DNA from: Bacillota bacterium
GTDB lineage: Bacteria; Bacillota; Clostridia; Lachnospirales; Lachnospiraceae
Assembly (NCBI GenBank): GCA_029226935.1
Contig: JAQXYZ010000061.1
Location: 1 to 48,316, forward strand
Reading direction: 5' to 3'
DNA length: 48,316 nucleotides
Positions 13 to 7,658 of the stretch are shown one piece after another. A program made the position numbers and the translations under genes. A model generated the notes under the pieces. It saw only the letters and a list, made by a program, of their open reading frames with translations. It had not been told where the DNA came from and did no database searches. The first letter of the stretch is position 1; each line of letters begins with the position of its first letter.

Positions 13-246
13 TTAATTTCCAATCTGACGTCCTTCATGGTTCATATGGTAGTGATCCCGGTAAATCAGCTCTGAAACCGGCACAAATGTATATCCTTCA
101 TTTTTTAATGTGGCAATAAGTGTGTCCAGCGCCTGGGCTGTAAACTTTGCTCCATTATGGCATAAAATGATACTTCCATTTCCAAGATGCTTGTTCTGTG
201 TTACCGTCTTAATAATGGAATCCACACCGTAATCCTTCCAGTCCAA
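13..246 (-). CDS. Polysaccharide deacetylase, C-terminal segment (third piece of split gene)
   Basis: This is the last 75 or so residues of a CE4 (NodB-homology) polysaccharide deacetylase. It carries the family's final motif, seen here as ILCHNG, whose His belongs to the active site. Translated alone it would begin at a TTG with no ribosome site, so it is unlikely to be an independent gene. Its first residues (LDWKDYGVDS) continue the DVDSLD that ends the middle segment at 3508, and the two are separated by element A. Rejoining at the direct repeats restores DVDSLDWKDYG in frame, a strongly conserved stretch of PdaA/PdaB-like proteins. Without excision of element A this segment is probably silent. 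The family assignment is confident; the sporulation role is inferred from the promoter at 7607-7636. Confidence 0.88.
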   Translation of the reverse strand: MDWKDYGVDSIIKTVTQNKHLGNGSIILCHNGAKFTAQALDTLIATLKNEGYTFVPVSELIYRDHYHMNHEGRQIGN

Positions 247-272
247 AGAATCACATCTATATATTAAAGTAA
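241..272. other. Attachment site of element A, end next to the C-terminal segment
   Basis: The direct-repeat copy GTCCAAAGAATC (241-252) is followed by the element arm ending in AAGTAA (267-272). The outer base of AAGTAA is 20.5 bp from the centre of TC (251-252). The matching arm TTACTT (3491-3496) lies 20.5 bp from the same dinucleotide in the other copy. This symmetry favours TC (GA on the other strand) as the 2-bp crossover. Confidence 0.65.
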
Positions 273-314
273 ATACTTTTTGTTTTATCGAATTATTTCG
301 GCGTTTTAATCAAT

Positions 315-345
315 AAAAAAGAAAACTGGGACTATTCCCCAGTTT
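315..345 (-). terminator. Rho-independent terminator after the RHH gene of element A
   Basis: The stem AAACTGGG (323-330) pairs with CCCAGTTT (338-345), followed on the minus strand by a run of six T. It ends the transcript of the small gene at 332-516 and overlaps that gene's last codons. Confidence 0.7.
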
Positions 346-516
346 CTTCATCGTCAATATTCTGAATTGCATATTCACAGCATTTTACTACCAGTTGTTT
401 AACGATATATTCTTACTTGTAGCAATGGTGTTTAGTTCTTCTAATAATTCTATTGGAAAGCGTAGGGTTCTATTTGAATACTCTTGCTTTTTTATGTGAA
501 ATTTATCAACAGCCAT
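332..516 (-). pseudogene. Ribbon-helix-helix (Arc/CopG-like) DNA-binding protein, frameshifted
   Basis: From the ATG at 514-516 (AAAGGG ribosome site about 9 nt upstream) the protein begins MAVDKFHIKK and continues through an RHH-like core (RTLRFPIELLEELN, then IATSKNISLN). The frame then hits TAG at 388. The same region in the other frame reads on as LVVKCCEYAIQNIDDE to a TAG at 332-334. Restoring one base in the AAC AAC stretch near 394 joins the two as SLNKLVVKCCEYA, the usual ending of such small proteins. The apparent lesion is therefore a single-base deletion. It is divergent from the secreted-protein gene at 708 and was probably its repressor; the palindrome at 595-613 is a candidate operator. 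A sequencing error cannot be excluded. Confidence 0.6.
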
Positions 517-594
517 AAAAACACGCCCTTTTCCATTTTCAAATATATATATCATTATAGTTGTAAATAACATACAAATATATACATCATTACA

Positions 595-613
595 ATACGC
601 AATCTATGCGTAT
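595..613. promoter_or_regulatory. Palindromic operator candidate between the RHH gene and the secreted-protein gene
   Basis: ATACGCA (595-601) and TGCGTAT (607-613) are perfect 7-bp inverted arms around 5 bases. They sit just upstream of the -35 box at 618. RHH repressors bind short symmetric sites like this, and the only regulator in the element is the divergent RHH gene. The link is inferred from position. Confidence 0.4.
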
Positions 614-617
614 AGTA

Positions 618-646
618 TTTACTCAATAAACTATCTATGCTACAAT
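618..646 (+). promoter_or_regulatory. Sigma-A-type promoter of the element A secreted protein
   Basis: TTTACT (618-623), a 17-nt spacer and TACAAT (641-646). It lies 61 bases before the start codon and directly after the palindrome at 595-613. Confidence 0.55.
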
Positions 647-707
647 ACAACTGCATCTAATCTAATCAAAACACAGCACATATTTAATAAGTAGGAGGAT
701 TTTACTA

Positions 708-1760
708 ATGAAAATCAAGCAAAAAAAGATAATCTGTAGTTTATTAACTGCAGTAATGTGTTTAGGTCTGTTTTTCACAACAGGTCTTGAAGCAAAAGCA
801 GCAGATCAAGTTGCTATCAGCATTGAATATTTATATGTAAAAGATGATGGTAGTAATGCATTTGTTACTGAGATGGCAAGCGTTGATAAAGGTACAACTT
901 GGAATACTTTTCTGGAAGTAGCTGATTATAAGCCAGAAAATGTTATTGGGGCTTCACCAAGTGTAAAGCGTGTTGGTATACAAAGATGCTTTTATGAACC
1001 AGATAATATTTCATATTTCGTAGAAGAAATAAAAAACTTTAATCAGTATACTGATTATGCTCTTTTAGAATACTATTTATATCCAGATGAGTATAAAGAA
1101 GCAGATTTGGCATTTGAATATTATGAAGGTGATGAAATAAAAGATGCTGGAAAAGGATGGACTTTACTTATTCCAAGTTCATATGCTGATGGAAGTGAAG
1201 AAGCTTTTGAATATATTCGTAGTAATTTCACTATATATGATTATTTACGTGACATATCCAACATTTCAGGAGTGGAATTAACAATATCTGATAGTAATGG
1301 AATATACGTTCTTACATTCAAGGCACCAGCAAAAAGTACGAATAAAACAGAAAATAGTGAAAAAACAGAGGAAGTAGTACAAAGACAAGAACCAGAACAA
1401 GTACAGGAAGTAGTAGTTACGGAACCAACTTCTGAAACAATAGCTGATCCTTCAAAGGCTGTAACTTATGTGCAGGCAATTAATTCACTTTTAATGAATA
1501 TAAATCAAGTAGAAAATAGTATTAAAGCAGAAAAAGTTACCGCTGATACTCCAGCAAAAGTAAATCTTGGAAATTACAACTCTCTTTCAGCTAATACAAT
1601 GACTAAATTGGAAAACGCAAATGTTGACATTATTCTTACATACCAATATAAAGGAAAAACATATACAGTAAAAATTCCTAAAGGATATAAATTTGATAAC
1701 AATATACCTTGGTATGGGCCACTCTATATGTATCAACTGTTCGGACAAAATGTTCAATAA
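708..1760 (+). CDS. Secreted protein of unknown function, cargo of element A
   Basis: 350 aa with a strong GTAGGAGGA ribosome site. Residues 1-32 form a signal peptide: basic KIKQKK, a hydrophobic core, then a likely AKA-A cleavage site. No lipobox or LPXTG anchor is visible, so release from the cell is likely. Residues 33-205 form an acidic, aromatic-rich domain I do not recognise. Residues 210-250 are a low-complexity linker rich in E, Q, T and V. The C-terminal 70 residues (LTYQYKGKTYTVKIPKG, then WYGPLYMYQLFG) resemble a module I have seen at the ends of clostridial secreted proteins, but no catalytic motif is evident. It has its own promoter and terminator, so it can be expressed while integrated. 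Codon use is AT-rich like the rest of element A. Function is unknown; surface interaction or signalling is only a guess. Confidence 0.8.
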   Translation: MKIKQKKIICSLLTAVMCLGLFFTTGLEAKAADQVAISIEYLYVKDDGSNAFVTEMASVDKGTTWNTFLEVADYKPENVIGASPSVKRVGIQRCFYEPDNISYFVEEIKNFNQYTDYALLEYYLYPDEYKEADLAFEYYEGDEIKDAGKGWTLLIPSSYADGSEEAFEYIRSNFTIYDYLRDISNISGVELTISDSNGIYVLTFKAPAKSTNKTENSEKTEEVVQRQEPEQVQEVVVTEPTSETIADPSKAVTYVQAINSLLMNINQVENSIKAEKVTADTPAKVNLGNYNSLSANTMTKLENANVDIILTYQYKGKTYTVKIPKGYKFDNNIPWYGPLYMYQLFGQNVQ

Positions 1761-1770
1761 ATAATACTGG

Positions 1771-1808
1771 AAAGGGGGAAACACTCAAGCGGTGTCCCCC
1801 TTTCTTTT
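1771..1808 (+). terminator. Terminator after the secreted-protein gene
   Basis: AAAGGGGG (1771-1778) pairs with CCCCCTTT (1796-1803), reinforced by ACAC/GTGT, and is followed by a T-rich tail. It separates this gene from the convergent recombinase. Confidence 0.8.
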
Positions 1809-1822
1809 GCTCTTTTTCTTTC

Positions 1823-3349
1823 TTAAATATTCCAAACAATCTCAAAATTATTGATATCGCTAGTTAAAATAATTTTTTCAATCAACAGTTTTACAACTTC
1901 TTTCTTCTGGTCTGGGCGTAAATCTCCATAAACAAGATGATGCTTAAATTCATTCGCTATATTTACATTATTAGAGAAATAAACTTTTGTCATACTTGCA
2001 GACGTTTTATTCATTTGGTGCTTCAATTCTAATTGGTTTAATTGCGTCTGCTTTTTTTCAATCGCAGACGCAAGAGCCTCAGCGGTTAAGTCACTATGTA
2101 AAGATAATTCAATTAATTTATCAATATCTGCTTTAATTTCATTAATCTGCTTTTCGATTTCAGCATTTTCAAATTCTTTTTTATGTCTCAAATTCTCCAT
2201 ATCGTCTAACTGCTTCTGTATTTCTTCACAGATAATCTTTTGCAAATCATTAAAATTGATTTTATTATATTTCTCTTTGCATAGGTGCAGGCTACGATTA
2301 CCATAGCAATCAAGATAGGGACGTCCGTTTGTGCTTTTACTATATGACTTGATAGCATAACCACAACAACTACATTTCAATTTTCCGCTTAATTCTTCCA
2401 ATATGCCGCCTGCATTTGCTCTGGCAAACTGTTCATTCATTGCCAGATGCTTCTGCACATTAATATAACTTACACTGGGAATGAAGCCCGCAAAATTGGT
2501 AAGGTAAATACTTTGTTCTTTCATAGTAGTATATTTTCTAATATTGGAATTGCCGACTTTTTTACCAATGACATGGGCAGATGTCGTTCCGTTCCACGCT
2601 TCCTCATCATTTAAAAAATTGATTTTTCTAGTTTTGAAATAAGCATATAGTGTTTTATCCGCTTTTACATAAATCGGGTTTTGCAGTATCTTAGAAACAG
2701 TTACACTGTCAAATACATCACGTTTATGCGGTTTATAGCCATTTTCATTCAGCCAACGTGCAACCTCGCCGAGAGTGCAGGTATCGGCACCATAATACAG
2801 CGCAAAAGCACTCATGACAGCTTCAATTTCTTCTTCAATCGGTATGAGTGTCGGCTTGCCTTGTTCAGTTCTTCCATTTTTAAAGCCATAAGGAGCAGGT
2901 CCGCCCGCCCAACTTCCAGTTTGTGCGGTTCTGTAATAATAGTTATCTTTTACACGCTTTTGAATGTTCTCCCGTTCCATCTGTGCAAATACCGCCAAAA
3001 TTCCCATCATAGCACGCCCCATGGCGTTTGATGTATCAAAAGCCTCTGACACACTGACAAATTCACATTTATGCTCATTCATAATTTCATATAATTTATA
3101 AAAGTCTGTAATGTTTCGGCTGATCCTGTCTAATTTATATACAACTACCTTTTCAATTTTATCGGCTACAACGTCCTCCAACAATCTTTGGAGTTCTGGG
3201 CGTTCGGTATTCTTTCCGCTATATCCCTTATCTCGATAAATAACTGCATTTTTATCAATGCCCTGGCATAGTTCAATTTGTCCTCCTATACTCAGGCTTT
3301 CCTTTTTGTCTACTGACTGCCTTGCGTAAATTGCTGTTTGTCTTGTCAT
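1823..3349 (-). CDS. Large serine recombinase of element A
   Basis: 508 aa, full length for a large serine integrase. The N-terminal resolvase domain (1-150) begins with YARQS, whose Ser12 is the likely nucleophile, and has the conserved YKLDRISRN and FDTSNAMGRAMMGILAVFAQMER stretches. A recombinase domain follows (about 155-270), then a zinc ribbon with paired cysteines (CSCCG, then Cys residues in LDCYG and HLCKE), then a coiled coil (about 385-450). I chose the ATG at 3347-3349 because GGAGG sits 9 nt upstream; a TTG two codons earlier is too close to it. It should catalyse attP x attB integration and, with a directionality factor, excision. It is the only recombinase in element A. Its 5' end lies close to the attachment site, so host-gene transcripts could read into it. 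Confidence 0.92.
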   Translation of the reverse strand: MTRQTAIYARQSVDKKESLSIGGQIELCQGIDKNAVIYRDKGYSGKNTERPELQRLLEDVVADKIEKVVVYKLDRISRNITDFYKLYEIMNEHKCEFVSVSEAFDTSNAMGRAMMGILAVFAQMERENIQKRVKDNYYYRTAQTGSWAGGPAPYGFKNGRTEQGKPTLIPIEEEIEAVMSAFALYYGADTCTLGEVARWLNENGYKPHKRDVFDSVTVSKILQNPIYVKADKTLYAYFKTRKINFLNDEEAWNGTTSAHVIGKKVGNSNIRKYTTMKEQSIYLTNFAGFIPSVSYINVQKHLAMNEQFARANAGGILEELSGKLKCSCCGYAIKSYSKSTNGRPYLDCYGNRSLHLCKEKYNKINFNDLQKIICEEIQKQLDDMENLRHKKEFENAEIEKQINEIKADIDKLIELSLHSDLTAEALASAIEKKQTQLNQLELKHQMNKTSASMTKVYFSNNVNIANEFKHHLVYGDLRPDQKKEVVKLLIEKIILTSDINNFEIVWNI

Positions 3350-3443
3350 TTGCAATTTCCTCCCTATTCATAAACTCCAATAACTTCATATAGATAGCCA
3401 GTTTTTCATCTTGTGTTAAGTTCTTATATGTGTTTATAATCAC
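3273..3443 (-). CDS. Small ORF overlapping the recombinase start (element A)
   Basis: 56 codons from a GTG at 3441-3443 (AGGTG 5 nt upstream) to a TGA at 3273. It begins VIINTYKNLTQDEKLA and continues through an Ile/Leu-rich helix and a basic tail (SRQKGKPEYRRTN). Its 3' half overlaps the recombinase start in another frame, and the recombinase ribosome site lies inside it, so translation would be coupled. I do not recognise the family. A small ORF in the same place occurs in element B, which makes a regulatory or directionality role possible. The alternative is a chance open frame. Confidence 0.35.
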   Translation of the reverse strand: MIINTYKNLTQDEKLAIYMKLLEFMNREEIANDKTNSNLRKAVSRQKGKPEYRRTN

Positions 3444-3473
3444 TTATACACCTGTAAAATCTTTTTTACTCCA

Positions 3474-3502
3474 TATCTATGAAAAAATCATTACTTATAT
3501 GT
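3474..3502 (-). promoter_or_regulatory. Weak sigma-E-like promoter candidate for recombinase A
   Basis: On the minus strand, ACATATA (3496-3502), 14 nt and CATAGATA (3474-3481). It matches 5 of 7 and 5 of 8 positions of the Bacillus sigma-E consensus (KMATATT, N14-15, CATACAMT). Chance matches are likely in such AT-rich DNA. Confidence 0.2.
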
Positions 3503-3512
3503 CCAGCGAATC
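3491..3512. other. Attachment site of element A, end next to the middle segment
   Basis: The element arm starts with TTACTT (3491-3496), followed by the direct-repeat copy GTCCAGCGAATC (3501-3512). The host reading frame DVDSLD runs into this repeat and stops two codons later in element DNA (ATA TAA). See the partner site at 241-272. Confidence 0.65.
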
Positions 3513-3863
3513 CACATCCCATTGAATCGTATAATAACCGCAATCCTTCGCCACATTTACCACTGCATTGTCATAATCTCCATAGGGAGGTCTGAACAGG
3601 AACATCTCATAACCCGTCAGTGTCAGCACCTTTTCGTGAACCTTCATCAGCTCCTCCTTCTTTTCACTGTCAGAAAGCTGACTCATATTCTTGTGATTTT
3701 CGCTGTGATTGCCAAGGTCATGACCTGCTGCCAAAATTGCCTTCACATCATCAGGATATTTTTCTACCCACCCACCAGTCATAAAAAAGGTCACGCGTAC
3801 ATCCTGCTTCTTCAATATTTCCAGAATCTTTGCGGTATCCTCGTTCCCCCATGGTGGCGGCAA
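3495..3863 (-). CDS. Polysaccharide deacetylase, middle segment (second piece of split gene)
   Basis: The host portion is about 3508-3852 and contributes 117 residues of the CE4 catalytic core. It carries the metal-binding motif GNHSENH (H-S-x-x-H), the RPPYGDYD motif and the start of DVDSLDW. Standing alone it would begin at a TTG inside element B with codons MPPP and no ribosome site, and end at TAA two codons into element A. Both ends are therefore artefacts of integration. Its first genuine codons WGNEDTAKIL continue TFDAA of the N-terminal segment at 7305. The segment is flanked by two different elements, showing that they inserted independently at sites 339 bp apart in the intact gene. 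As it stands the product would be inactive, lacking both the catalytic Asp motif and the final His motif. Confidence 0.88.
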   Translation of the reverse strand: MPPPWGNEDTAKILEILKKQDVRVTFFMTGGWVEKYPDDVKAILAAGHDLGNHSENHKNMSQLSDSEKKEELMKVHEKVLTLTGYEMFLFRPPYGDYDNAVVNVAKDCGYYTIQWDVDSLDI

Positions 3864-3871
3864 CTTGCGGT
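3850..3871. other. Attachment site of element B, end next to the middle segment
   Basis: CATG (3850-3853) is followed by the arm GGCGG (3856-3860) and TTGCGGT (3865-3871). This is the mirror image of the arm at 7285-7300. The outer base lies 20.5 bp from the centre of CA (3850-3851). Confidence 0.8.
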
Positions 3872-3964
3872 ATGAACATTGATGATCTGCTCTTCCTTAG
3901 AGCTTACATTAGCGCCATTAATGACTACACTGTTATATTTATTGATTCTATTTCTATTTTTTAC

Positions 3965-3993
3965 TTGAAGCTATTCGCAAAATGGAGTACAAT
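3965..3993 (+). promoter_or_regulatory. Sigma-A-type promoter of the element B chemoreceptor
   Basis: TTGAAG (3965-3970), 17-nt spacer, TACAAT (3988-3993). An AAGGAG ribosome site follows at 4005-4010. It suggests vegetative expression while the element is integrated. Confidence 0.65.
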
Positions 3994-4021
3994 TTTCTCA
4001 TACTAAGGAGAGGGTGTTACT

Positions 4022-5422
4022 ATGTTATTAAAAAACAAAAAAACCGAAGGGCTTATTAACGCGCTTTCTGAATTACAGGATGCCAATTATAAGCTTTCCA
4101 GCCAGAAACTGGCTGAAATTTATGAACGTCTGGTAAGCGGAAGGGAACAGTTCGAGCAGATTTTGGAGCAGAATATTTCTGCTGTTATGCAGATCAGCTC
4201 ACTTGATTTGACCCTGCACCATTACACAGAAAGTTTGGATCAGATTTCCAAAAGTGTGGCAGATGCCACCAAGGCAATTCATGCTTCCTCTGCGGACACT
4301 TCCGGGGTAGCAGGTGCCGTTTCCGGTCAACATGAAGAGCTGACCAATACCATTATTACCGCATCTGAAGAATCCAGCAGTGTTTACAAGAAAATTGAAG
4401 AAGGACAGGAAGAACTGACCTATATCAAGAGCCTGTCTGACAGTACCATTGCTGCTTCCGAGGAAATGAAACGGGATATGGATCAGCTTGACCAAATCAT
4501 TAATGATATGAATGCAGTCATTGAGGGAATTAATTCCATTTCTTCCCAGACCAATATGCTTTCCCTGAATGCTTCCATTGAAGCCGCAAGGGCAGGCGAA
4601 GCCGGAAGAGGATTTGCTGTTGTTGCCGATGAAATTCGTAAGTTGGCAGACGAGACTCAGACACTGACCGGAACCATGGGAAATTTCGTTGAGGATGTCA
4701 AAAAAGCATCCCGAAAGAGCGTAGACAGTGTAGCTGGCACAATTGATGCTCTGGAGACAATGACCAATAAGATTAGTCATGTATGGGCGCTGAATGAGGA
4801 GAACCAAAAGCATGTTGCCAAAATTACTGACAATATCAGTTCTCTTGCCTCCGTCAGCGAAGAAATCAGCAGTTCCATGATTGAACTGGAAAATCAGGCA
4901 ACCGAAATTCAAGAAGAATGTAAAATTTTATCAGAAGACACAGAAAAGCTCCGTGAAATCGGAATATGTATCCGGGATTCTGTGGAACCTGTTGCCCAGA
5001 TTGAGAAAACCTTGGATGACAATGCCAAAATGATGGGTAAAATGTCTCAGGATGCCTTTTATTCGCTGGAGAAGAAAGAATTCTCAAAATATCTGGACAG
5101 AGCAATCAATGCTCATAAAATTTGGCTGGTCAATTTAAAAAATATTGTATCAAGCCGTACCATTATGCCATTACAGTTAGATGATGCCAAATGTGGTTTT
5201 GGACATTTCTATTATTCCATTACACCTAAGTACCCTGAAATTATCGATCTGTGGAACAACCTTGGTGCCAAGCATAAGAAATTCCATCACTATGGAGAAG
5301 AGGTTATTAAGGCTCTGTTTGCAGAGGATTACAGTGGTGCTGAACGTATTTGCAGTGAAGCAGAAGAATTCTCCAAAGAACTGCTTCATGATCTGGAAGA
5401 AATGAAGTCCAGAATTTCTTAA
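4022..5422 (+). CDS. Soluble methyl-accepting chemotaxis-type protein with C-terminal CZB domain
   Basis: 466 aa without signal peptide or membrane segment. Residues 1-90 are helical with no known sensor domain. Residues 90-310 form the MCP signalling coiled coil, whose hairpin tip is the hallmark SLNASIEAARAGEAGRGFAVVADEIRKLA split over about residues 180-208. Residues 345-460 match the chemoreceptor zinc-binding (CZB) module: HKIW, CGFGHFY and HKKFHH supply the 3-His/1-Cys zinc site. CZB receptors elsewhere respond to zinc or to oxidants such as hypochlorite through the cysteine. It should couple to CheA/CheW in the cytoplasm. It is odd cargo for a 3.4-kb element; it has its own promoter and terminator, so it is not simply co-expressed with the recombinase. 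Control of something other than motility is possible. Confidence 0.88.
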   Translation: MLLKNKKTEGLINALSELQDANYKLSSQKLAEIYERLVSGREQFEQILEQNISAVMQISSLDLTLHHYTESLDQISKSVADATKAIHASSADTSGVAGAVSGQHEELTNTIITASEESSSVYKKIEEGQEELTYIKSLSDSTIAASEEMKRDMDQLDQIINDMNAVIEGINSISSQTNMLSLNASIEAARAGEAGRGFAVVADEIRKLADETQTLTGTMGNFVEDVKKASRKSVDSVAGTIDALETMTNKISHVWALNEENQKHVAKITDNISSLASVSEEISSSMIELENQATEIQEECKILSEDTEKLREIGICIRDSVEPVAQIEKTLDDNAKMMGKMSQDAFYSLEKKEFSKYLDRAINAHKIWLVNLKNIVSSRTIMPLQLDDAKCGFGHFYYSITPKYPEIIDLWNNLGAKHKKFHHYGEEVIKALFAEDYSGAERICSEAEEFSKELLHDLEEMKSRIS

Positions 5423-5469
5423 GTACATAGTAATCGGCACATTCATAATTTTATAAGGAACAGAAAATC

Positions 5470-5505
5470 AAATCTCCAACCGCTTGTATGTGGTTGGAGA
5501 TTTTT
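5470..5505 (+). terminator. Terminator after the chemoreceptor gene
   Basis: AAATCTCCAACC (5470-5481) pairs with GGTTGGAGATTT (5492-5503), followed by T residues. It separates the chemoreceptor from the recombinase transcription unit. Confidence 0.85.
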
Positions 5506-5535
5506 GCATATCGGACAAGCTCTCCTTCATATGCT
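5506..5535 (+). promoter_or_regulatory. Sigma-E-like promoter candidate of the recombinase B operon
   Basis: GCATATC (5506-5512), 15-nt spacer and CATATGCT (5528-5535). It matches 6 of 7 and 6 of 8 positions of the Bacillus sigma-E consensus (KMATATT, N14-15, CATACAMT) at permitted spacing. It starts one base after the terminator hairpin tail and about 50 nt before the first start codon of the operon. The host deacetylase promoter has the same form and the same 15-nt spacer. Confidence 0.45.
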
Positions 5536-5584
5536 TTATACAAACAGGCCAATAATCCATTATTTGTCGTTAGGAGGCAAACCA

Positions 5585-5734
5585 TTGCAGGACGAGGAAC
5601 AACCAGCCGCTTCTTATACTATTGAGCGGACTTTTCTTGGCAAACTTACTGTGGAAGAATTCCTATGTCACATTATTTCTTCTCATATCAAGCCCCCTGA
5701 GAACAGCTATACCATGCAAGGAGACTTACAATGA
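5585..5734 (+). CDS. 49-aa protein encoded just before recombinase B
   Basis: The start is the TTG at 5585-5587 because a perfect AGGAGG lies 7 nt upstream; earlier in-frame starts at 5504 and 5531 have no ribosome site and overlap the promoter. The protein begins MQDEEQPAASYTIERTFLGK and has a helical second half (VEEFLCHIISSH). Small proteins with this TYxIERxFxGK pattern followed by an amphipathic helix are often seen before serine recombinases in Firmicutes elements; I know no proven function. Its stop overlaps the recombinase start as ATGA, so the two are translationally coupled. A role as directionality factor or recombinase partner is an inference from position. Confidence 0.7.
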   Translation: MQDEEQPAASYTIERTFLGKLTVEEFLCHIISSHIKPPENSYTMQGDLQ

Positions 5735-7294
5735 CCTCCCATTTTCTATACCAAGCAGCTGCATACATCCGTTTATCCAAAGAAGACGGCGATAAAACCG
5801 AAAGTGACAGTATTGCCAATCAAAAAAAACTGATTACAGATTATTTGAAAGTTCAGACCGACTGTACTCTTCATGATATCTATGTGGATGATGGTTTCTC
5901 TGGAACGACCTTTTCCCGCCCCGGCTTTGAGCGGATGATCGCAGACATTGAAACCGGAAAAATCAATTGTGTAGTTGTCAAGGATCTGTCCCGGTTTGGA
6001 AGAGATTATATTGAAACAGGGAAATATCTGGAACGTTATTTCCCTGACCACACTGTGCGCTTCATTGCCATCACAGATCACATTGACAGTGCCAAGTGTG
6101 CATATGACATGCTTTTACCTATTAAAAATATTTTTAACGAACAATATGCAAGAGATATTTCCTGTAAGATTCACGCTTCTATTACTGCCAAACAAAAATC
6201 CGGAGATTTTATCGGTGCATTTGCTTCCTACGGATACCGGAAATCTCCTGTCGATAAGAACAAACTGGTCATTGATCCCCCTGCCGCCGATGTCGTCAGA
6301 AAAATCTTTACTCTTTATCTTGAAGGCTGCGGAAAGGTTCGCATCGCAGCTATTCTGAATAATAAGGGCATTCCCTGTCCTTCAGAGTATAAAAAACTGA
6401 ATGGTGAACACTACCGCAATTCCAATCGATTGGAATCTACCTCCTACTGGACTTACTCCACCATTAATCGAATTCTTCATAATGAAATGTATCTGGGAAA
6501 TATGGTACAGGGAAAAAAGAGCCAGCAGATGCGAAAGAAAGCCAAAAGGAAAAAACAGAGCGACTGGATGATTGTGCCGGGAACCCATGAGGCAATTATT
6601 GACCAATCAACCTGGGAAAAGGTGCAGGACTTATTACACCGTAAAACCCGAAATCTTGATTTTAACTCTGAACAGAATATTTATGCCGGTTTTCTCAAAT
6701 GTGGTGACTGCGGAAGAGCTTTGGTAAAGAAAGGTACCAATTATTATTGCGGCACCTATGTACGTTCAGGCAGACAGTATTGCTCTCCTCATCGGATATC
6801 GCGTCAGGCACTGGAAAATATTCTATCACAAGATTTGCGGACCGTCATTCAAAGTATGGACAATCTGAAAGATATCGTTATTACACAAAAATCCACAAAT
6901 AGGGACACACCCGGTAAGTATAACTTAAAAAACGAAAGGGAAAAACTACAGGCAGAACTTGACAAGCTTCGCAAGATACAAAAAAAAAGTTTATGAAGAC
7001 TATCTCGAAAATATCATTTCCAAAGAGGAATGTATCACTTACAGACAAAACTACGCCCAAAAAGAAGAACTGCTGTCCAAACAGTTAATATGTTTAAACC
7101 AAAATACCGATACACAAACTATGGATATCCTTGAAATTCCATGGATTAAGCATCTTCTTGAGTTTGGAGAGGTAGAAAAATTAGATCGGGATATTATAGT
7201 GACCATGCTTCATGAGATTCGGGTGTATGAAAACCGTACCATCAGAATTACCTATAATTTTTCCGGCAGACAGGAAAATTTTTTACCGCAATAA
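5731..7294 (+). CDS. Large serine recombinase of element B, frame interrupted at an A9 tract
   Basis: The first frame gives 421 aa (5731-6996). It has a resolvase domain with YIRLS (likely nucleophile Ser16) and KDLSRFGRDYIETGKYLE; a recombinase domain (about 165-290); a zinc ribbon (CGDCG, then YYCG and QYC, about 325-355); and the start of a coiled coil. After nine A (6980-6988) it runs SL-stop. The next frame continues the coiled coil (KKVYEDYLENIISKEEC) and the typical C-terminal end to TAA at 7292-7294. With eight A the protein would be a normal 520 aa. The truncated form keeps all catalytic residues but loses most of the coiled coil needed for synapsis control in this family. Polymerase slippage on the A tract, phase variation, true mutation or a sequencing error would all explain it. 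Its stop codon lies within the attP arm. Confidence 0.85.
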
Positions 7295-7591
7295 ACCGCC
7301 GGCACATGCTGCATCAAAGGTAAGCGCAATTTTTTTCTCCGGTGTCTCCACGCAGTAAATCGGCAGTTCACGCCCATCAACGCTATTGCTTACTGTCACG
7401 CTTCCTCCTGCTGCCACCATCACACCGCGGAGCACTGCAAAAGCTGCCAGCACAAGTGCCCCATATTTAAGAAAGTTCACTGCATTTTTTCTCATGTATT
7501 CTTCTCTGCTCAGTATCTTTTCATCTTTTTTCTTTTTATTATTGCCGCCAATCAATTTTTTTATGTATTCCCACATATCCCAAACGCTCAC
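7283..7591 (-). CDS. Polysaccharide deacetylase, N-terminal segment (first piece of split gene)
   Basis: The host portion is 7305-7591 and gives 95 residues. These are a lysine-rich cytoplasmic start (about 1-37), one membrane-spanning helix (about 38-62), and the beginning of the CE4 domain with KKIALTFDAA, whose Asp is the catalytic base. The second Asp typical of TFDD is Ala here, as in several sporulation deacetylases. The frame then runs seven codons into element B and stops. The rebuilt gene is 287 aa, membrane-anchored, with the catalytic domain outside the membrane. In Bacillus, PdaA and PdaB modify spore cortex peptidoglycan, and pdaB is sigma-E controlled. The start could be the GTG at 7589-7591 or the ATG five codons later (about 24 nt from the predicted transcript start); neither has a strong ribosome site. 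Confidence 0.88.
   Translation of the reverse strand: MSVWDMWEYIKKLIGGNNKKKKDEKILSREEYMRKNAVNFLKYGALVLAAFAVLRGVMVAAGGSVTVSNSVDGRELPIYCVETPEKKIALTFDAACAGGLLR
7285..7308. other. Attachment site of element B, end next to the N-terminal segment
   Basis: ACCGCAA (7285-7291) and CCGCC (7296-7300) precede CATG (7305-7308). Host codons GAT GCA GCA TGx stop matching the deacetylase exactly here. It is the mirror of the site at 3850-3871. Confidence 0.8.
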
Positions 7592-7606
7592 TAAAATTGT
7601 TACTAC

Positions 7607-7636
7607 AGTTTATGACAGATATTTTTGTCCATATGA
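7607..7636 (-). promoter_or_regulatory. Sigma-E-like promoter of the split deacetylase gene
   Basis: On the minus strand, TCATATG (7630-7636), 15 nt and CATAAACT (7607-7614). It matches 6 of 7 and 7 of 8 positions of the Bacillus sigma-E consensus with allowed spacing. The predicted start of transcription is near 7600. It suggests expression in the mother cell during sporulation, as for pdaB of B. subtilis. Confidence 0.6.
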
Positions 7637-7658
7637 ATCCTGTTTACGGCAAACCCAT

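Follow-up and report, generated by a model that had tools for sequence, protein, structure and literature searches.

A PdaB-like deacetylase gene split by two serine-recombinase elements in a Lachnospiraceae genome, and its interruption at five sites across Parablautia

A deacetylase gene in three pieces

The window analysed here is a 48,316-nucleotide (nt) stretch of DNA from a Lachnospiraceae bacterium and constitutes a whole contig (JAQXYZ010000061.1) of a 2.59-Mb draft genome. Near its start, a CE4 deacetylase gene lies on the minus strand in three in-frame pieces (7591-7307, 3851-3513 and 252-13), and each of the two gaps is filled by an element, designated A and B. The pieces and the elements are arranged as follows.

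7307..7591, minus strand: 5' piece of the PdaB-like deacetylase gene, 95 codons, GTG start, ending in ..TFDAA
3852..7306, no strand assigned: element A, 3455 bp, at site I (TFDAA/WGNED), crossover core TG
3513..3851, minus strand: middle piece of the deacetylase gene, 113 codons, PF01522 at E 5.9e-32 on 3510-3851
253..3512, no strand assigned: element B, 3260 bp, at site IV (WDV/DSLDW), crossover core GA
13..252, minus strand: 3' piece of the deacetylase gene, 79 codons plus stop

Joined, the pieces add up to 285 + 339 + 240 = 864 nt, which corresponds to 287 codons and a stop. The 5' piece by itself gave no match in Pfam or NCBIfam; that the three pieces are one gene follows from the uninterrupted orthologues present in 14 of 37 genomes of the genus Parablautia. 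The ends of the elements share short cores in register, CATG for element A and GATTC for element B, and recombination between these attachment (att) repeats restores the reading frame on paper at both junctions. With residues numbered as in the uninterrupted 285-amino-acid (aa) orthologue of genome G023, the predicted cuts fall in TG at residue 94 and in GA at residue 207. Neither repeat was among the 20 largest of the 45 repeat families listed for the window. They are not considered chance matches, since identical crossover points recur in other species, as described below.

An earlier note on this DNA had proposed that two independent serine-recombinase elements divide a single CE4 deacetylase gene, and the analysis of pieces, domains and orthologues confirmed this observation. 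The element lengths and the 287-codon joined frame given there were reproduced, and the statement that both elements must leave to give the protein is supported, both lengths being 2 mod 3. The three segments drawn in the note also stand, with exact ends off by 1 to 5 nt relative to our codon-based bounds. The direct repeats that it placed at the element ends were found in register, but they are short.

Five sites and five recombinase families in Parablautia

Using the uninterrupted 285-aa orthologue as query, some match to the deacetylase was obtained in all 37 Parablautia genomes searched. The orthologue is interrupted in 21 genomes, uninterrupted in 14 and was not found in two (G015 and G036). 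The uninterrupted homologues that the earlier note had suggested looking for in relatives therefore exist. Break points in the 21 interrupted genes fall at five precise sites.

Site I, TFDAA/WGNED: 11 genomes (G018 with the 5' flank only), core TG at 10 of 10 junctions with both flanks
Site II, GWV/ESYPDD: 3 genomes, core TGGGT at 3 of 3 junctions
Site III, AAG/HDLGNH: 4 genomes, core GCAGG at 4 of 4 junctions
Site IV, WDV/DSLDW: 4 genomes, core GA at 4 of 4 junctions
Site V, CHNGA/KYTAQ: 2 genomes, broken core CAA.GG.GC at 2 of 2 junctions

Wherever both ends of a junction were in hand, the core was in register at the join (23 of 23 genus junctions). Two elements occupy the gene in three genomes, namely the window genome (sites I and IV), G030 (I and II) and G027 (II and III), and the middle pieces are reduced to 29 codons in G030 and 14 codons in G027. 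Such lengths bear on the idea that the pieces are made as separate polypeptides that assemble into the enzyme. The frames of the pieces do stay open, as this would require, but middle pieces of 29 and 14 codons are too short for likely stand-alone proteins. Moreover, we take sites I, III, IV and V to lie in or beside conserved catalytic motifs of the NodB fold, which is a single compact domain. We give separate polypeptides next to no credence.

Serine recombinases accompany all 21 interrupted genes; tyrosine recombinases were not sought. Within a site the recombinases are recognizably related, with aa identities of 44 to 93% at site I, 84 to 88% at site II, 45 to 93% at site IV and 80% at site V. 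The site III elements of G008, G014 and G025 each carry three tandem recombinases, every one of which is conserved across the genomes (61 to 85%). The highest identity in the between-site comparisons that were made was 39%. Judged by these identities, each site is tied to its own large-serine-recombinase family.

The sizes of the elements span roughly 2 to 45 kb, leaving aside two gaps of 84 and 92 kb. Seven open reading frames (ORFs) were scanned in the 42.5-kb site V element of G020; their matches include terminase, portal, minor head, tape measure, polymerase and helicase, which makes the element a prophage. The 45-kb site III element of G008 encodes a TraG-type ATPase, and the 84-kb gap in G006 holds carbohydrate genes.

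Several further deacetylase sequences were encountered in the genus. A second, different copy is interrupted at RPPY, a sixth site, in G018 (L082, 683-1108), and another second, different copy is interrupted at site III in G031 (L101, 2034-2159). Contig C103 of G031, which ends in a site III junction, was considered as a second state of the uninterrupted gene and rejected, being a different copy (72.5% nt identity over 120 bases). G035 has two tandem copies about 2 kb apart from start to start (L095, 2107-2961 and 4151-5005), the second with one internal stop codon. In several genomes, loose 3' deacetylase fragments were found beyond the full or split copies (L098 5092-5223, L099 2857-3045, L076 10574-10696, L090 12062-13512 and L084 1772-4242), resembling scars left by earlier insertions or replacements; the L098 fragment, from G007, begins at the site V boundary. 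In the window genome, the contig end overlaps contig C89 by exactly 141 nt. This overlap was considered as a sign of a mixed excised and unexcised population and was rejected, as only those two contigs share the stretch.

Outside the genus, the integrase of Ruminococcus phage RG-TP1 (L207), an induced temperate phage of Mediterraneibacter gnavus, is 48% identical to the site V recombinase. The integrase is followed, at about 4390-4440, by an inverted repeat around GCCCCATT, a sequence also present at deacetylase site V, and the phage may integrate there.

The same sites in other Lachnospiraceae

A search of 397 genomes of the family gave 160 with a match at E 1e-40 or better, two of them Parablautia. 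Sixteen truncated-looking cases were picked among the matches listed and searched again. Both parts of the gene were recovered in 14 of the 16 (eight at site I, one at site II, four at site IV and one near site V) and one part in the other two. Twelve of the cases were fetched; nine contained a recombinase match and three (G299, G388 and G235) none. In all nine recombinase-bearing cases, the best of ten site-labelled recombinase queries belonged to the same site as the interruption, at 35 to 76% identity, a count that leaves out G299. Sites I, II and IV are thus shared with other genera of the family, together with matching recombinases. Contig joining errors are an unlikely explanation for the split, since in G418, a single-contig genome of 5.43 Mb, the gene parts lie 92 kb apart at site I.

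The G299 insert (L188, 2133-3601) measures 1.47 kb, lies at site I and has no recombinase match. It contains one 425-aa ORF and may be a non-autonomous element dependent on a recombinase supplied in trans.

Selection on the split gene and the age of the split

For all 20 of the Parablautia genes in which every piece was located, each piece is open and each boundary is in frame. Stops flagged for G001, G005 and G020 in the first genus search lie outside the gene pieces as finally bounded. A codon model was fitted to 34 genes (20 split and 14 intact) over 256 codons; the second copy of G035, with its internal stop, was left out of the codon analysis, G018 was left out of the joined set as its 3' piece was not found, and G015 and G036 lack the orthologue. 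The ratio of non-synonymous to synonymous substitution rates (dN/dS, omega) came to 0.043 for the tips with split genes and 0.046 for those with intact ones; internal branches gave 0.066. A single tip omega fits as well as two (log-likelihood, lnL, -11427.97 versus -11427.85), while fixing omega at 1 on the split tips gives an lnL of -13506.1, a drop of about 2078. When a fraction f of the split-tip length was allowed to evolve neutrally, f = 0 was best, with f = 0.01 costing 2.9 and f = 0.02 costing 8.6 log units. The neutral fraction is below about 1% overall, and species by species the first rejected value of f was between 0.02 and 0.15. With so small a neutral fraction, a dead gene would need a very late insertion in every lineage.

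Two sister pairs provide an indication of how long the gene has been split. Element A of the window genome (G000) and the element of G012 are collinear over 3330 nt at 76.5% nt identity, and the two deacetylase genes have 79% DNA identity; for this pair dS is 1.70 and omega 0.043. The 12-kb site I elements of G028 and G029 are collinear in large part, and the corresponding values are 0.86 and 0.042. The collinearity of the elements at site I means that, if they were inherited, the gene was split in both pairs throughout; this was probably so, and the split in the window appears to predate the divergence of G000 and G012. Pairwise omega over ten pairs ranged from 0.020 to 0.077, the highest value being that of the split pair G003/G033. 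Other pairs speak against general inheritance and indicate that elements also move. The recombinases of G017 and G022 are 93% identical in aa against 75% nt identity for their deacetylase genes, and those of G000 and G033 are 93% identical in aa against 77% nt identity for the host genes.

These data bear directly on the possibility that the deacetylase is dispensable and dead, a mere landing site for elements. Such a view could draw on the two genomes of 37 in which the gene was not found, the internal stop in the uninterrupted tandem second copy of G035, a 73 to 79% identical paralogue present in 12 of the 37 genomes, and the broken recombinase of element A (see below). Yet no disabling mutation was found in any of the 20 interrupted genes, omega is as low as in intact genes and stays at 0.042 to 0.043 where insertions have apparently been shared for long, and 16 of the 21 interrupted genomes showed no such paralogue in the genus search. 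These data disfavour a dead gene, and we consider it very improbable. The dN/dS comparison of interrupted and intact genes, which the earlier note had proposed, thus agrees with its view that the gene was not simply killed, and a live gene is far likelier than a dead one.

Recombinases and cargo of the two elements

The remaining features of the two elements are listed here, beginning with element B.

1823..3355, minus strand: large serine recombinase of element B (recB), 510 aa; Pfam Resolvase, Recombinase and Zn_ribbon
3273..3443, minus strand: small ORF of 56 aa between the middle piece and recB, overlapping the recB start, similar in G033 and G003; candidate directionality factor (a guess)
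708..1760, plus strand: cargo of element B, 350-aa protein with a signal-peptide-like N-terminus (by eye)
388..573, minus strand: small ORF of element B, 61 aa; its HicB-like match is weak (E 0.04) and falls below the cut-off
5731..6996, plus strand: large serine recombinase of element A (recA), 421 aa up to a frameshift; Pfam Resolvase, Recombinase and Zn_ribbon_recom
6980..6988, plus strand: run of nine A at which the recA frame changes; the recombinases of five relatives are unbroken there
6959..7294, plus strand: out-of-frame 3' part of recA, 48 to 59% aa identity to the C-terminus of five unbroken site I recombinases
5531..5734, plus strand: small ORF of 67 aa just upstream of recA; G012 has a similar ORF in the corresponding position; candidate directionality factor (a guess)
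5508..5535, plus strand: candidate sigmaE-like promoter of the recA operon; G012 has a strict match as well, and the signal is weak across the elements as a whole
4022..5422, plus strand: cargo of element A, MCP signalling and CZB domain protein, 466 aa, 83% aa identity to the cargo of the G012 element

The domain set of large serine recombinases (Resolvase, Recombinase and zinc ribbon) is present in both recA and recB, the zinc ribbon of recB scoring 23.8 bits, slightly below the Pfam cut-off of 25.3. RecB has 93, 80 and 47% aa identity to the site IV recombinases of G033, G003 and G005, respectively. It lies on the strand of the deacetylase, closely behind the middle piece, and in all four genomes with a site IV element the recombinase follows the front part of the gene on the same strand. 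RecA is 74% identical in aa to the site I recombinase of G012, and its last ~111 codons continue in another frame. In a pairwise comparison of this tail, dN was 0.25, dS being saturated so that only dN is readable. The earlier note had given each element its own recombinase. This holds for element B, with its 510-aa recB; in element A the recombinase is present but frameshifted, and a picture of two working recombinases is too strong.

Neither candidate directionality-factor ORF (3273-3443 and 5531-5734) matched a family, the second having no Pfam or NCBIfam hit. For the 56-aa ORF, pairwise omega was 0.19 to 0.67 over 56 codons, which is weak evidence of a protein. The 350-aa cargo of element B likewise had no Pfam or NCBIfam match. 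Conserved in the G012 element, the cargo of element A resembles a chemoreceptor, and its CZB domain is of a zinc-binding type. The ORFs of elements A and B gave no phage structural domain in Pfam or NCBIfam, and no phage record matched the first 8 kb of the window. No viral contig matched the deacetylase or recB, and a site I recombinase gave one distant viral match at 49% identity.

Probable link to sporulation

The best family of three intact homologues was PdaB (NCBIfam TIGR02764), with 223.0, 225.8 and 225.9 bits. In B. subtilis, pdaB (spoVIE) is assigned to the sigmaE regulon in a table of sporulation-screen mutants, with a value of 5 in a column that we take to give percent sporulation (PMC4703394). 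Three polysaccharide deacetylases are under sigmaE in C. difficile (PMC3789822). The window gene is preceded by a candidate promoter of a related kind.

7606..7637, minus strand: candidate sigmaE-like promoter of the deacetylase gene, -35 TTCATATG (7630-7637), -10 CATAAACTG (7606-7614)

The -10 motif CATANANTG was found upstream of all 33 orthologues examined (G011 and G032 are left out of the promoter set), with 1.23 expected, for a motif chosen after seeing the sequences and in genes that are related. An ATA -35 stands at a fixed spacing near the start in 24 of the 33 genes with CATANANTG, and the two together have what we take to be the form of sigmaE/sigmaK promoters. In many relatives, the -10 is also overlapped by an inverted repeat, GTCATAAA...TTTATGAC, immediately ahead of the start codon (for example G001, L091, upstream of 1797); the copy in the window lacks the second arm.

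Two other mother-cell genes were compared. SpoIVA scored over its cut-off and is unbroken in 36 of 37 genus genomes. The best SigK-family match never reached the threshold of that family; in all 34 genomes for which it was listed, it is unbroken. The SpoIVA and SigK-like genes are therefore not interrupted in the same manner in the genomes examined.

The purifying selection described above would be explained equally well if excision had no link to sporulation, and the elements left and re-entered at a low rate in vegetative cells, by phase variation or active mobility, with selection acting on the excised subpopulation. Recombinases and elements have indeed moved between species, and yin, an element in yabG of C. 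botulinum, was reported excised in part of the population at all time points (PMC10747680). The conserved sigmaE-like promoter motif of the deacetylase gene speaks against this explanation, as does the place of its B. subtilis namesake in the sigmaE regulon list (PMC4703394). In addition, the gene is split in three genomes linked to records of Parablautia intestinalis D8-82 and P. muri D42-62, both interrupted at site I, and of Bacterium 1xD8-48, and the split was apparently kept over a long divergence, whereas frequent germ-line excision would tend to erase it. We consider vegetative excision unlikely, though less so than a dead gene.

Proposed mechanism

We think it probable that the locus is a live PdaB-like spore-wall deacetylase gene, split by two mobile elements, and that their excision restores it, most likely within the mother cell. 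In going from the arrangement of the DNA to excision, we lean on analogy with skin, gin and yin, elements in sporulation genes that are discussed below. In the proposed sequence of events, sigmaE would switch the deacetylase gene on in the mother cell, each large serine recombinase would cut the gene at a short core of its own, and the departure of both elements would leave the exact 287-codon frame. Since the mother cell is terminal, the enzyme would be restored without germ-line loss of the elements; the mother cell dies and the elements would persist in the genome of the spore. For element B, read-through from the deacetylase promoter could make recB together with the small ORF, given that recB shares the strand of the gene and begins shortly after the middle piece. 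Excision itself, its timing in the mother cell, read-through and the directionality factors are what we infer from this arrangement.

Several observations weigh against the proposal. If the recA frameshift is real and is not bypassed, element A could leave only with the help of another recombinase. Strict scans placed sigmaE-like sites before 6 of 24 recombinases, with 1.54 expected, which is too weak to claim; at site I, G000 and G012 have such a site before the recombinase operon. The three intact homologues fall short of the PdaB cut-off of 237.4 bits, and the name PdaB-like is accordingly approximate. Some elements have, from the identities given above, moved horizontally, so that some insertions may be recent. 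The genomes appear for the most part to be draft or metagenome assemblies, and for 7 of 20 split genes (G001, G003, G017, G019, G027, G030 and G033) the joining of the pieces is an assumption, as they come from different contigs. Finally, the gene parts of G021 are in opposite orientation.

The G021 parts (Bacterium 1xD8-48; L073, 1513-2088 and 4117-4410) represent either an inversion or a misassembly.

Comparison with known systems

Like the elements of the window, both skin and SPbeta have a serine recombinase. As in our proposal, skin in sigK of B. subtilis and C. difficile and SPbeta in spsM are mobile elements in mother-cell sporulation genes that are restored by excision (PMC5025042, PMC4191935). 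The window differs in that the gene is a PdaB-like deacetylase, there are two split points, the elements are 3.3 to 3.5 kb without phage structural domain matches, and excision is a proposal drawn from the sequence. The gin element in gerE of B. cereus similarly has no phage genes and lies in a sporulation gene, and its three serine recombinase genes (PMC5595907) recall the site III elements of G008, G014 and G025; however, gin occupies one position in a 225-bp gene, whereas here a single gene has five positions and five recombinase families. As with recB, the recombinase of yin is downstream of the 5' part of a spore gene and in the same orientation, but yin is a single prophage-like element reported to be unique to one strain (PMC10747680).

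The closest parallel in the number of insertions is in heterocyst-forming cyanobacteria, where elements in nifD, nifH and hupL hit one gene at several positions and the recombinases mostly cluster by position (PMC4874684). Their host is a terminal cell type, as the mother cell is here; the phylum, developmental programme and genes are different, and both serine and tyrosine recombinases occur there, the search made here having been for serine recombinases. Several elements were reported in 10 of 87 interrupted genes, with four in nifD of Rivularia PCC 7116 (PMC4874684). Because of such multi-element nifD genes, the claim in the earlier note that two elements in one gene are undescribed was too broad. 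Our literature search, which covered part of the literature, found no account of interruption of this deacetylase gene or of two elements in one sporulation gene. As far as we have seen, the kind of arrangement is known, while the gene, the host group, the number of sites and the evidence from selection are new.

Significance

The sporulation cases compared from the literature are single elements in single genes. The deacetylase instead presents convergent targeting of one gene in gut Lachnospiraceae, at five positions and by five recombinase families, with repeated double insertions. A broader proposal, for and against which we see the case as evenly balanced, is that this spore-wall gene serves as a docking platform across the family. 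Prophage, conjugative-type and minimal elements would each have evolved a recombinase specific to one position out of at least five, mostly in codons of conserved catalytic motifs that the host cannot easily change, and hosts would tolerate them since only a terminal cell requires the gene. Where the gene holds two elements, making the enzyme would then call for two independent excisions in one cell, an intron-like, two-key lock at the level of DNA.

The locus lends itself to tests of how mobile elements become established in terminally expressed genes, and is a source of serine recombinase sets with natural att sites in conserved coding DNA. It is also a warning that annotation may label working spore genes as broken. 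For the Lachnospiraceae, it offers a parallel, in an unrelated terminal cell, to the multi-element nif genes of heterocyst-forming cyanobacteria.

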